The notes beneath the pieces are model-generated. The model was given only the letters and a program-made list of their open reading frames with translations. It was not told the origin of the DNA and did not search any database. From assembly GCA_001871015.1 (NCBI GenBank), contig MNUO01000107.1, forward strand, positions 1 through 6,850: DNA of 6,850 nt. The letters run 5' to 3'. Origin of the DNA: Candidatus Desantisbacteria bacterium CG1_02_38_46. GTDB taxonomy: Bacteria; Desantisbacteria; UBA1551; UBA1559. The stretch's first letter is position 1, and every line of letters begins with the position of its first letter. This document shows, piece after piece, positions 715 through 6,850 of this stretch. The position numbers and the translations under genes are program-made.

Positions 715-1272
715 ATGAGAATAAAAGAGACAGAAATCAAAGTTATCCAGGGCGATATTACTGAGCAGGAAACAGAAGCAATTGTCAATGCTGCTAATAA
801 CCGCCTGATTATGGGCGGCGGTGTGGCTGGAGCAATTCTACGCAAAGGCGGGCAATCCATACAGGACGAATGCAATAAAACTGGTCCAATTGCCATTGGA
901 GAGGCGGCTGTAACAGGCGCAGGGAACCTCAAGGCAAAATATGTGATTCATGCGGCAACAATGGGAATGAATTTTGACACCGATGAAGAAAAAATCAGAA
1001 CTTGCACAAGAAATTCGCTAAAACGCGCGGAAGAAAAGAAAATGAAATCTGCTGCGTTTCCAGCGCTTGGCTGTGGTGTAGGTGGGTTTCCTGTGAAAAA
1101 AGCAGCAGAAATAATGATGGAGGAAGTAAAGGCACATCTTGAAGAAATTGACAAATCTTCTCTGAAGGAAATTGTGTTTGTTTTATTTAATAAACCAGCA
1201 TTCGAAGCATTTAAGAAGGTAGTGGTGACGCAGTTCTGTCATTGCGAGAAACGAAGTGACGAAGCAATCTGA
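715..1272 (+). CDS. Macrodomain protein, ADP-ribose binding or hydrolysing, with a repeat-derived C-terminus
   Basis: Residues 1 to about 170 form one macrodomain. GDIT (13-16) supplies the adenine-contacting Asp14. IVNAANN (23-29) and the Gly-rich GGGVAGAI (34-41) form the ribose and distal-ribose pocket. AAFPALGCGVGGFP (113-126) is the phosphate loop. Family members bind ADP-ribose or remove it from proteins or nucleic acids. A strong GGAGGT (704-709), directly after the PIN stop and 5 nt before the ATG, fixes the start. The domain should end near FKKVV. The last residues include [11 protein letters not shown] (175-185), which is the translation of the palindromic repeat at 1237-1270, and the TGA stop uses the repeat's last base. 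The tail is therefore probably an insertion artefact rather than native sequence. The gene overlaps the GIY-YIG gene by 17 bp. The family is confident; substrate and any link with the PIN protein are inference. Confidence 0.92.
   Translation: MRIKETEIKVIQGDITEQETEAIVNAANNRLIMGGGVAGAILRKGGQSIQDECNKTGPIAIGEAAVTGAGNLKAKYVIHAATMGMNFDTDEEKIRTCTRNSLKRAEEKKMKSAAFPALGCGVGGFPVKKAAEIMMEEVKAHLEEIDKSSLKEIVFVLFNKPAFEAFKKVVVTQFCHCEKRSDEAI
1237..1270 (+). repeat. Left palindromic repeat (CATTGCG...GAAGCAATCT type)
   Basis: This 34-bp sequence is an imperfect palindrome in itself: ATTGC near one end and GCAAT near the other, with an AACGAAGTGAC-type centre. I recognise it as a dispersed repeat whose translation CHCE(K/E)RSDEAI recurs as a spurious C-terminus in protein databases; that recognition is from memory. 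Here it encodes the last residues of the macrodomain protein in one frame and the first residues (MTKQS) of the GIY-YIG protein in another. Confidence 0.75.
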
Positions 1273-1558
1273 TGAAAGAAATTATTATGTATACATAATG
1301 ACAAATTACAAAAATACCGTTCTTTATACTGGCGTTACGAATAATTTGAAAAAGAGAGTGTATGAGCATAAATTAAAATTGGTTGATGGTTTTACAAAAA
1401 AATATAATGTTAACAAATTAATATATTATGAGATTTTTAATGATATTAATAATGCCATAGCAAGAGAAAAACAAATTAAAAGCGGATCCAGAAAGAGAAA
1501 AATTGATTTGATTAATAGATTGAATAAAGACTGGAAAGATTTATATGAAGAAATATAG
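1256..1558 (+). CDS. Small GIY-YIG nuclease (YhbQ/UPF0213-like)
   Basis: The 100-residue protein is a complete minimal GIY-YIG domain. YYVYI (10-14) matches the GIY strand and LYTGVTNNL (23-31) the YIG strand. Arg34 in KKRVYEH is the expected catalytic arginine, and Glu71 in [11 protein letters not shown] the metal-ligand glutamate. The family cleaves DNA in many settings (UvrC, homing endonucleases, restriction); the role of these short stand-alone versions is poorly defined. The GTG start at 1256 is inside the left repeat and is the only reasonable start upstream of YYVYI; the Shine-Dalgarno is weak. The stop overlaps the right repeat. The gene overlaps macrodomain and Nudix genes by 17 and 14 bp and is clearly richer in A+T (many Lys, Asn and Ile codons), suggesting separate origin. 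A part in moving the repeat is inferred from position only. Confidence 0.88.
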
Positions 1559-2036
1559 ATTGCTTCACCCCGCAGGGGTTCGCAATGACAAAATTAAAAG
1601 AATACCAAAAATAACAGTTGATATAATTATTGAAATTGACAATGGCATTATCCTTATCGAGCGCAAAAATCCACCATATGGATGGGCTATTCCTGGTGGA
1701 TTTGTTGATTATGGGGAAAGTCTGGAATCTTCAGCAGTAAGGGAAGCAAAGGAAGAAACTGGACTTGATATTGAAAATTTGCATCAATTCCATACCTATT
1801 CTCAACCCGGAAGGGACCCCAGAGGACATACAATTTCCACTGTTTTCATCGCAAAAGGCAAAGGTATTCCAAAAGCAAGTGATGACGCTATAGACATAGG
1901 AATTTTCATAAAAGATAATTTACCTGAAAACCTTGCCTTTGACCACCGTCAAATTCTTGAAGATTATTTCAAAAATAGAAAAATAGGGACAGCGACCATT
2001 TTTGATTCACAATTCAAAGGGGTCCCCAAAAAGTGA
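1545..2036 (+). CDS. Nudix hydrolase (ADP-ribose-pyrophosphatase-like), N-terminus replaced by repeat-encoded sequence
   Basis: The Nudix signature is complete: Gly52-x5-Glu58-x7-Arg66-Glu67-x2-Glu70-Glu71-x-Gly73-Leu74, in a GGFVDYGES context. Nudix enzymes hydrolyse nucleoside diphosphates linked to another group; [17 protein letters not shown] resembles the ADP-ribose/NADH-type group, but the substrate is not proven. The conserved domain begins near residue 21 ([10 protein letters not shown]). Residues 5-15 ([11 protein letters not shown]) are the translated right repeat, and no ATG, GTG or TTG lies in frame between the repeat and the Nudix box. The only starts are therefore the ATG at 1545, inside the GIY-YIG gene with GGAAAG 6 nt upstream, or a TTG at 1560 inside the repeat. 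Residues after FKNRK (about 147 on) look non-native and coincide with an imperfect hairpin. Nudix plus macrodomain in one cluster suggests ADP-ribose handling. Confidence 0.88.
1557..1590 (-). repeat. Right palindromic repeat, inverted copy of 1237-1270
   Basis: Read on the minus strand this is TGTCATTGCGA, a centre that itself forms ACCCC-TGC-GGGGT, then GAAGCAATCT. The outer 11 and inner 10 bases equal the left copy exactly and the total length is also 34 bp. The different 13-bp centres suggest either two sub-types of the repeat or arms conserved by selection while centres drift. It is translated as [11 protein letters not shown] in the Nudix frame. Confidence 0.75.
1986..2026. repeat. Imperfect hairpin at the Nudix 3' end (GGGAC...GTCCC)
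   Basis: GGGAC (1986-1990) and GTCCC (2022-2026) can pair around a 31-nt loop. The left arm GGGACAGCGACC resembles GGGGACAGGCAC at the left arm of the much better hairpin at 5551-5591, which suggests a degraded copy of a related repeat. It encodes the Nudix tail from about IGTATIFDS onward. AGGGG at 2018-2022 in the right arm is also the best ribosome binding site for the next gene. Homology between the two hairpins is tentative. Confidence 0.35.
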
Positions 2037-5201: not shown

Positions 5202-5537
5202 TTGACAAAACTTTATGTTGGGAATTTGAGTTATGAAACCACTGAAGACCATTTGAAGGAACTGTTTTCACAGGTCGGAACTGTGCAGAGCGTCAACATC
5301 ATTAAAGACAAGTACTCTGAAAGGTCAAAGGGTTTTGGGTTTGTGGAAATGTCCACTGAGGAAGAAGCAAAAAAAGCTATTGCAGAACTGAATGAAAAAG
5401 ATTTTATGGGCCGTAATATTGCTGTTGCTGAAGCAAAGCCTCCGCGTGAGCATGGTAGCGGTGGCGGCGGATATCGGCAAGGCAGAGGCGGCGGCGGTGG
5501 CGGTGGATTTGGCGGAAGAAGACGGGAAAGATATTAA
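5202..5537 (+). CDS. Gly-rich RRM RNA-binding protein
   Basis: The 111-residue protein has one RNA recognition motif (about 2-82) followed by a low-complexity tail. RNP2 is KLYVGNLSY (3-11) and RNP1 is KGFGFVEM (about 44-51), with the aromatic residues that stack on RNA. The tail (about 83-111) is almost all Gly and Arg, resembling RGG-type extensions that add nonspecific RNA binding. Bacterial proteins of this layout, first known in cyanobacteria and found in many other phyla, act as small cytoplasmic RNA chaperones, often cold-inducible. The start is TTG at 5202, supported by AAGGAG 5 nt upstream and by the RRM beginning directly after it. The gene appears monocistronic; the rightward promoter at 4825-4852 may contribute. 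A hairpin terminator follows 7 bp or more after the stop. Confidence 0.92.
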   Translation: MTKLYVGNLSYETTEDHLKELFSQVGTVQSVNIIKDKYSERSKGFGFVEMSTEEEAKKAIAELNEKDFMGRNIAVAEAKPPREHGSGGGGYRQGRGGGGGGGFGGRRRERY

Positions 5538-5544
5538 GTAAATC

Positions 5545-5607
5545 AAAAAAGGGGACAGGCACTCCGATGTTAAATCGGAGAGCCAGTCCCCTTTAGTCCC
5601 CTTTTTT
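5545..5607. terminator. Bidirectional terminator made of a REP-like palindrome
   Basis: GGGGAC (5551-5556), GGC (5558-5560) and CTCCGAT (5562-5568) pair with ATCGGAG (5574-5580), GCC (5582-5584) and GTCCCC (5586-5591) around a GTTAA loop, interrupted by two symmetric A-A mismatches. AAAAAA at 5545-5550 becomes a U-run for leftward transcripts (radical SAM gene). For rightward transcripts (RRM gene) the stem is followed by TTTAGTCCCC and TTTTTT. AAAAAAGGGGAC (5545-5556) can also pair with a second GTCCCCTTTTTT (5596-5607). The T-run overlaps the radical SAM stop codon. The regular mismatches and the related arm at 1986 suggest it is also a dispersed repeat. Confidence 0.75.
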
Positions 5608-6850
5608 AATCCACTTCCAAGCCTGCCTTCTTTCTGCGGTAATCATCCCTGGCAATTCTCCACATCCCTTTATTTACTTCATCTTCCCAGATTTTCTGAT
5701 AAAGTTTTTTGACTTCTTCCGAGTAATTATCCAGTTCCTGACGAATTTTTGGGTCTGTGAGCATTTTCCTTGCTCCTTCATGTGTGGGATAGGGATTGGT
5801 CTCTTCATATACCTGACGGATTACCTCGGGGTGGTCAATGAGCGTGCAGGGAAGGTACATATTCTCATCGTATGGCTGCCTGTCCTTAAGTGCTTTAAAG
5901 AATGGAGATTTCAATGCCTGTCTGAGACCTGAAGTTTTGATATTATCACTAGCAAAATGCGCAAAGATACAGGGCTCAATATCACCACGGGAATTTATAT
6001 GAATAAATTGCCTTGCAGCAATGCAGCCCCGCACAAAAGGAGCATCATTCCAGAAATCAATAATAAATAATGGTTTATTATCTCGAATATAATCCCGTCT
6101 GAGTTTCAAATAAAGTCTTTGTTGTGGAGTTGGCATAAATTCTGTTGTAGGGTCTTTTCCTACTGGCATACACAGAAAATACCAGCCAATATAAGCTCCC
6201 TTGTTTATCATTAAATCAATAAACTCATCGCTCATTATTGTCTCAACATTGTATTTTGTAACATAACAGGAATAACCAAACAGTATTCCCGCTTCCCTTG
6301 TCCTGTCCATAGCATCCATTACCTTATCATAAACACCTGGAGCCCGCCTTTCATCTGTTTCTTTTTTAAAACCTTCTAAACTGAACATAAGTGCTACATT
6401 CCCGAGTTTCACAAGCTTCTTTATAGTATTATCATCTAACAGGGTTCCATTTGTATAAATCTGAAAATAGCAATCGCTATGACCAGCCAGGAATTCAAAA
6501 AGATGTGGGTATATAAATGGCTCTCCACCGAGGATTGTGAAAAACGAACTTCCGATTTCATTGCTTTCTTTGACTATTTTGTTCATTATTTCAAGACTTA
6601 AGTCATCTTCTCTTACATAATCTGCAGCATAACATCCCTGGCATCTGAGGTTACATTTCATTGTGGGACTGATAAGAATTGTTGTGGGTGGCTGAAAACC
6701 TTCTTTTTTTCTAAAGCTTTCTCTTATTCCATTGTTGATAAGGAGATGATTAACTATCAAATTAACTGAAAATTTATCACGGCAATTGGGATGAAGTTTA
6801 CCAAGGATTTTCTTGGCATAAATCACGCTGGGATGCTCTTCTTCAAAGCA
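5606..6850 (-). CDS. Radical SAM protein with SPASM/twitch-like extra cysteines, N-terminus probably beyond the right edge
   Basis: Counting from a GTG at 6826, the 406 residues carry the radical SAM cluster CNLRCQGC (Cys58, Cys62, Cys65), GGEP (100-103) for SAM binding, and YTNGTLL (124-130) in the barrel. Beyond the barrel, Cys219, Cys268 (VRGCIAARQ), Cys286 (GDIEPC) and Cys327 (MYLPC) are spaced like ligands of auxiliary iron-sulfur clusters in SPASM or twitch proteins, which modify peptides or act in cofactor and lipid pathways. The C-terminus is an amphipathic, charged helical region. The frame stays open upstream of the GTG for eight more codons to the window edge and the GTG lacks a good ribosome site, so the true start is probably outside. 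No precursor peptide gene is visible nearby in the window. The substrate is unknown. Confidence 0.88.
   Translation of the reverse strand, partial: CFEEEHPSVIYAKKILGKLHPNCRDKFSVNLIVNHLLINNGIRESFRKKEGFQPPTTILISPTMKCNLRCQGCYAADYVREDDLSLEIMNKIVKESNEIGSSFFTILGGEPFIYPHLFEFLAGHSDCYFQIYTNGTLLDDNTIKKLVKLGNVALMFSLEGFKKETDERRAPGVYDKVMDAMDRTREAGILFGYSCYVTKYNVETIMSDEFIDLMINKGAYIGWYFLCMPVGKDPTTEFMPTPQQRLYLKLRRDYIRDNKPLFIIDFWNDAPFVRGCIAARQFIHINSRGDIEPCIFAHFASDNIKTSGLRQALKSPFFKALKDRQPYDENMYLPCTLIDHPEVIRQVYEETNPYPTHEGARKMLTDPKIRQELDNYSEEVKKLYQKIWEDEVNKGMWRIARDDYRRKKAGLEVD

Follow-up and report, generated by a model that had tools for sequence, protein, structure and literature searches.

A small GIY-YIG nuclease gene between inverted CGTC-type REP sequences in Candidatus Desantisbacteria and its relatives in other bacterial phyla

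A contig of Candidatus Desantisbacteria bacterium CG1_02_38_46 carries a small GIY-YIG nuclease gene fitted between two inverted palindromic repeats. Is this nuclease the repeats' own enzyme, and does it move them? The window, that is, the whole stretch of DNA analysed, is 6850 bp long and comprises an entire contig (G000:C11) of a genome assembly of 1.73 Mb in 133 contigs.

The unit in the window and its host genes

The two 34-bp arms of the unit, 1237-1270 (TGTCATTGCGAGAAACGAAGTGACGAAGCAATCT) and 1557-1590 (reverse-complemented, TGTCATTGCGAACCCCTGCGGGGTGAAGCAATCT), are identical in their outer 11 and inner 10 bases and match at 24/34 positions overall, confirming the coordinates and identities given in the sequence-only reading of this DNA (table 1). 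Both arms bear a TGTC tag; the tags of relatives are CGTC, TGTC or CCTC. The only general stem that the arms share is the 5-bp ATTGC/GCAAT and their loops differ. Beyond these 5 bp, pairing continues as an inner stem in the right arm and amounts to little in the left, the norm for CGTC REPs being a stem of 8-9 bp and a loop of 4-5. The right arm has a clear DNA fold (z -2.7) and the left a weak one (z -0.7). The pattern CATTGCGAN{8,24}GCAATC has 17 copies in the genome of 1.73 Mb, and its reversed-pattern control has none. Only the window pair among these copies encloses a nuclease gene, and gene-less close inverted dimers are found at C6 5881/5927 and C98 13118/13161.

Table 1. Features of the unit and its surroundings. 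Residues of the nuclease are numbered from the E encoded at 1274; positions refer to the window unless another contig is named.
Feature	Position	Strand	Remarks
Macrodomain gene (host context)	715..1272	+	Reading frame enters left REP
Left CGTC-type REP	1237..1270	+	Tag TGTC 1237-1240, stem ATTGC 1241-1245, stem GCAAT 1264-1268, tail CT; tag outward
GIY-YIG nuclease gene, 100 aa	1256..1558	+	PF01541 match; GTG start within left REP
Family-invariant residues of the window protein			Y7 (1292-1294), Y18, R28 (1355-1357), H32, E65 (1466-1468), N84; all present
Codons of residues 70-72 (S-G-S)	1481..1489	+	Three columns best separating REP stem classes; candidate specificity residues
Nudix gene (host context)	1545..2036	+	Sole ATG upstream of the conserved domain falls within the unit
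Right CGTC-type REP, inverted	1557..1590	-	Tag outward; contains AG of the nuclease gene's TAG stop
RAYT-like unit at the G001 junction	L347 2570-3100 (G001:C57)		Palindromes GTAGCTGCAGGGCTTGCCCTGC, 21 copies in G001

CGTC REPs are characterized by an unpaired CGTC/TGTC/CCTC tag, a stem starting with AT, a short CC-type tail and a dominance of head-head dimers, which in several families are mostly heterodimers (PMC3733652). The repeats of the window and of its relatives agree with this description in tag, AT-starting stem, tail, head-head dimers and dispersal (the 17 copies against none in the control), whereas their loops are often longer and the stem is sometimes only 5 bp.

The protein encoded between the arms matches PF01541 (E 1.4e-16); it is a single-domain protein of 100 aa in which PF01541 was the only match and no NUMOD or other DNA-binding domain was found. 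As the sequence-only reading had noted, the GTG start (1256) lies within the left arm and the AG of the TAG stop (1556-1558) within the right. Translation appears to begin inside the left REP because this GTG is the only usable in-frame start, a protein begun at the next ATG lacking the fold's first strand. The view of nuclease and repeats as one closed unit, with start and stop inside the repeats, holds for the window copy and fails as a general rule, since relatives such as L024, whose gene starts after the repeat, start and end outside the repeats.

The left REP supplies the last codons (11 residues) and the stop of the macrodomain gene. In G001, a genome of the same order, the macrodomain homologue has the C-terminal sequence ..REAIL followed by TAG, and the Nudix homologue starts MEQPRITVD, which aligns to KRIPKITVD in the window. 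With the macrodomain end and the only Nudix ATG both provided by the unit, its insertion may have changed the two host proteins. The gene order macrodomain, Nudix, RNA methyltransferase is kept in G001, and the macrodomain-Nudix junction of that genome is one of several sites found free of the GIY-YIG unit. It holds instead a Y1_Tnp (RAYT-like) ORF between GTAG-tagged palindromes, so that the same gap is taken by two unrelated REP-nuclease units in the two genomes sampled from this order. Elsewhere in the window, a strong nested inverted repeat (5536-5616, AAAGGGGACAGGCACTCCGAT...) lies 3' of an RRM protein gene; it may be a terminator acting in both directions or a further dispersed palindrome.

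Repeats around related nuclease genes

A protein search of 41 genomes recovered homologues at 48-73% identity in scattered genomes. The closest lie between the same CATTGCG repeats as the window gene and the more distant between other common dispersed repeats, GTCATTCTGAGCGCAGCGAAGAATCT and GTCATTCCCGCGAAAGCGGGAATCCAG, all with a common layout of [C/T]GTC tag, AT-nnn stem, loop, complementary stem and C[C/T] tail. At least three repeats of the two common types are present in 7/7 of these 41 genomes with a strong subfamily gene and in 3/34 of the others. One genome, G033, has 35 repeats and no detected nuclease gene, which counts against a cognate nuclease.

Our main sample consists of the best 80 of at least 578 genome loci from a profile scan, chosen by protein only and spanning about 25 phyla. 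Among these best 80 of at least 578 loci, a strict REP lies within 300 bp of the gene in 71, on both sides in 53 and as an outward-facing inverted pair in 48; related genes are thus mostly flanked by repeats. Shifted control positions in the same loci (n=917) gave a REP on either side in 80 cases, on both sides in one and as an outward pair in none. Orientation is equally marked in the same best 80 of at least 578 loci, the nearest left repeat being on the plus strand in 48 and the minus strand in 11, and the nearest right repeat on the minus strand in 55 and the plus strand in 10. The median tag-to-tag length of outward pairs is 384 bp (n = 40).

Inverted similarity scored without the motif agreed with these counts, reaching at least 14 in 40/79 loci and in 0.8% of 597 controls, and stem complementarity, which was not assumed, was found in 209/282 flanking candidates as compared with 48-77 in shuffles. 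An independent sample of 386 genomes had a repeat at 48/62 subfamily genes and at 2/41 other GIY-YIG genes that came from the same search (Fisher 6e-14). Strict repeats are absent from about 10-23% of the main samples, and some of these loci carry CTC- or GTCGT- variants; the association counts are therefore lower bounds, as the strict motif misses variants with these tags. Among relatives on viral contigs, 19/39 have a strict repeat and 20/39 do not, and phage records yielded only distant GIY-YIG matches (36-38%).

Several loci depart from the simple layout. Two related units in G053 (L208/L235) combine GTC-GTTCCC repeats with a second palindrome (GTCTCACCCGCG...CGCGGGTG), a tag and stem variant outside the strict motif. 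At L237/L240 (G345:C1:598606-599960) the nuclease gene is tandemly duplicated inside a long array whose TTC-class repeats measure about 106 bp each. On a Planktothrix agardhii plasmid (L180) the unit sits between an MmeI-type restriction gene and DISARM drmA, that is, inside a defence region; a search for a defence role of the nuclease gave only sub-threshold PADLOC matches.

Intergenic repeats are common in many of these genomes, and it might be argued that repeat-rich intergenic places simply collect small genes, the nuclease being functionally unrelated to its neighbours. The absence of outward pairs at the 917 shifted positions and the scarcity of repeats at other GIY-YIG genes contradict such chance hitchhiking, as does the predictability of repeat class from protein sequence described below; we rejected this candidate and give it almost no credence.

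Protein sequence, repeat class and known systems

A protein tree was built from 98 sequences; it has few columns and many open forks, and the counts given here draw on its clades, not on the finer branching. On this tree the coarse stem class changes 13 times (null 29-39) and phylum, with 36 changes (null 46-55), more often than stem class. Among 48 new loci, the nearest protein of the first set gave the right stem class in 41 (mean 32% and maximum 54% under the null). Where one genome holds paralogues, each goes with its own clade and repeat, as with TGC and TCC in G021, TCT and TCC in G025, and TCC and TTC in G345. Residues 70-72 are the most informative columns for stem class, followed by 15, 75 and 13, with per-column information inflated by shared ancestry. 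By class, residues 70-72 are A/G-G-S for TGC, G-W-L for xCT, K-W-N for xCC and K-W-R for TTC. That the protein predicts its stem class, mainly via residues 70-72, implies cognate recognition.

The earlier proposal that the nuclease is the repeats' own enzyme is thereby strongly supported: the association crosses phyla in the expected orientation, is absent at other GIY-YIG genes and involves a repeat class that is tracked by the protein. Neither of the two outcomes that the sequence-only reading gave as refuting it was seen: most relatives do carry repeats at their flanks, and empty sites exist, the macrodomain-Nudix junction of G001 among them. From these sequence comparisons, the nuclease subfamily is probably the dedicated enzyme of the CGTC REP superfamily.

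Y7, Y18, R28 and E65 are present in at least 99% of 193 sequences. An AF2 model of the nuclease (pLDDT 94.8) has UPF0213 1zg2 as its nearest solved fold (E 1.5e-4), followed by Slx1 and UvrC; Slx1 is described in PMC6902002 as a structure-selective endonuclease acting on branched DNA. The subfamily is similar in size to UPF0213/YhbQ and has its nearest solved fold in that family, whereas the scores of subfamily sequences separate cleanly and the other GIY-YIG genes of that search are not repeat-flanked (the 2/41 above).

GIY-YIG is also a homing endonuclease domain, and relatives of the window protein are weakly similar to the group I intron endonuclease model TIGR01453, below its cut-off. A homing-type element would cut both strands of unit-free alleles, and repair would copy the unit in. 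We rejected this candidate, and consider it quite improbable, on the grounds that the 100-aa window protein is single-domain with neither NUMOD nor other DNA-binding domain, that the insertion contexts are unrelated rather than allelic, and that the specificity of the protein tracks the flanking repeats and not the disrupted site.

The nearest analogue is the RAYT/REPtron system (TnpA-REP, Y1 HUH) with its GTAG REPs and REPINs. Like RAYT, the nuclease gene is small and lies between inverted copies of its own dispersed palindrome, copy number is low and the repeat class is tied to the enzyme. The enzyme folds are unrelated, GIY-YIG with PF01541 as the only match and no Y1_Tnp/HUH match in our case, and the RAYT/REPtron tag is GTAG as opposed to TGTC in the window. 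Unlike in RAYT/REPtron, several clades may coexist per genome here, and one genome has two copies that are 96% identical.

A 2013 survey found CGTC REPs without a dedicated transposase and met transposase genes beside them in a few fortuitous cases only (PMC3733652). According to the same study the superfamily includes Neisseria dRS3 and Rickettsia RPE-4/RPE-6, CGTC-1 being dRS3 in Neisseria (PMC3733652). We found the nuclease gene in species named there or in close genera, namely Azospirillum lipoferum, Sinorhizobium meliloti, Novosphingobium aromaticivorans, Sphingobium and Neisseria. The Neisseria gonorrhoeae homologue lies inside an array of GTCATTCCC (dRS3-like) repeats, and a Neisseria homologue is about 58-60% identical to a subfamily member.

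This Neisseria homologue may be Ssn itself, and the nuclease subfamily of the present analysis is probably the Ssn family. The position of the gonococcal gene in its GTCATTCCC array, together with the equation of CGTC-1 with dRS3, supports this identity. Chenal et al. (Nature Communications, 2025) are said to have described Ssn as site-specific single-stranded GIY-YIG nucleases with NTS repeats in Neisseria. That work was reportedly centred on single-stranded DNA cleavage by Ssn and on transformation, the Neisseria enzyme cutting a repeated single-strand target and modulating natural transformation; the cognate sequence is said to be present in hundreds of copies and homologues to differ in specificity. 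The likeness to this family is of a small GIY-YIG protein with a repeated cognate sequence and specificities that differ among homologues. The Ssn work is not known to have drawn a link to the CGTC superfamily, to a residue 70-72 code or to unit mobility, and our literature searches found no paper relevantly linking GIY-YIG to REP, RAYT, dRS3 or CGTC, queries with the repeat sequences returning nothing relevant. The sequence-only reading had suggested an undescribed class of element, a term that we drop because the repeats fit the CGTC REP superfamily and the nuclease probably belongs to the Ssn family. Given the probable Ssn identity and the Neisseria evidence, the window locus probably belongs to a known kind, its reading as a mobile element being plausible.

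Mobility and a possible mechanism

Units are patchily distributed, and homology between loci of different phyla is limited to gene and repeats. In Azospirillum lipoferum 4B (L174) the unit splits sufB-sufC, which is unit-free in four other Azospirillum species, and in Shinella sp. PSBB067 (L186) a different, independent unit with CCT stems occupies the same sufB-sufC gap. These empty sites have diverged, so that neither the insertion junction nor a target-site duplication can be read from them; among Rhizobium and Sinorhizobium strains, the unit was present at the same place or the flanks were too different for an empty site to be recognized.

Two units in G054, on two contigs, are 96% identical, with homology that begins at the left tag and ends within the right repeats. 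Paralogue pairs within one genome are mostly only 45-80% identical, suggesting that complete units are seldom multiplied in any one genome. That the nuclease mobilizes the unit and that solo repeats are its derivatives, as the sequence-only reading suggested, we retain as plausible. Near-identical copies occur in only three of the genomes holding several. About 35 near-identical repeat pairs in G001 were considered as recent REP amplification and rejected, their flanks placing them inside an unrelated MITE with CTAGTGTGGTGTC ends. This MITE (L187-L202; ~166 bp, ends CTAGTGTGGTGTC...GACACCACACTAG) has captured an outward-facing REP pair, and its many near-identical copies often lie at contig ends.

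Taken as a whole with its conjectural steps, we consider it fairly probable that the unit is a CGTC-superfamily REP element carrying its own cognate nuclease. We predict that the protein, relying on residues 70-72 and on the loop near 13-15, recognizes the tag and stem of its own REP class in repeats that are single-stranded or form an extruded hairpin. The probable substrate of the nuclease is the tag or hairpin of single-stranded DNA, and one strand would be cut near the GTC tag using Y7/Y18/R28/E65, possibly during replication or on incoming single-stranded DNA. Such a cut would allow the head-out pair, with anything between, to be copied to or joined at another place, and would leave solo repeats and pairs without a gene behind. 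This role would be that proposed for RAYT with GTAG REPs, performed here by an unrelated nuclease.

Some observations count against this explanation, namely the weak left-arm hairpin of the window unit and the relatives lacking a strict repeat on viral contigs and in the main samples. That the near-identical pairs of G001 ride on a MITE, together with the low identity of same-genome paralogues, speaks against high activity of the unit.

The specificity data fit equally an alternative that we judge rather unlikely and that differs from the preferred explanation in its last step only. The nuclease may be a site-specific single-strand cutter for which the REPs are landmarks in some other task, for example editing or curbing the single-stranded DNA that enters in transformation, or removing hairpins at forks. 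In that case the repeats would be attracted or preserved by cutting and repair at its gene, the nuclease mobilizing nothing and the unit spreading by repeat recombination or with horizontally acquired DNA. The reported activity of Neisseria Ssn agrees with this alternative, as do the differing repeat numbers in arrays around nuclease genes, the small number of near-identical dispersed copies and the G054 pair, whose homology stops within repeat arrays, an outcome that recombination would yield as well. Against it, the patchy occurrence in many phyla and the unit-free sites of close relatives look like those of a mobile gene.

Returning to the cognate nuclease of a REP element, we put forward tentatively a wider reading in which minimal autonomous elements of about 350-450 bp occur across most bacterial phyla, their GIY-YIG single-strand nuclease moving CGTC-type REPs, and itself when located between two, with the repeat class set by a residue 70-72 code. 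If true, the REP lifestyle would have two unrelated enzymatic bases, RAYT and this nuclease.

CGTC REPs are widespread, and their origin was left open in 2013 because a dedicated enzyme was not found. Now that one small GIY-YIG subfamily is paired with them and a sequence rule is at hand, the question can be tested with short oligonucleotides and a protein of 100 residues. If Ssn acts as reported, the biochemistry is already partly in place and the addition made here is the evolutionary and mobile-element side. The residue rule would also predict the targets of many unstudied members of the subfamily.
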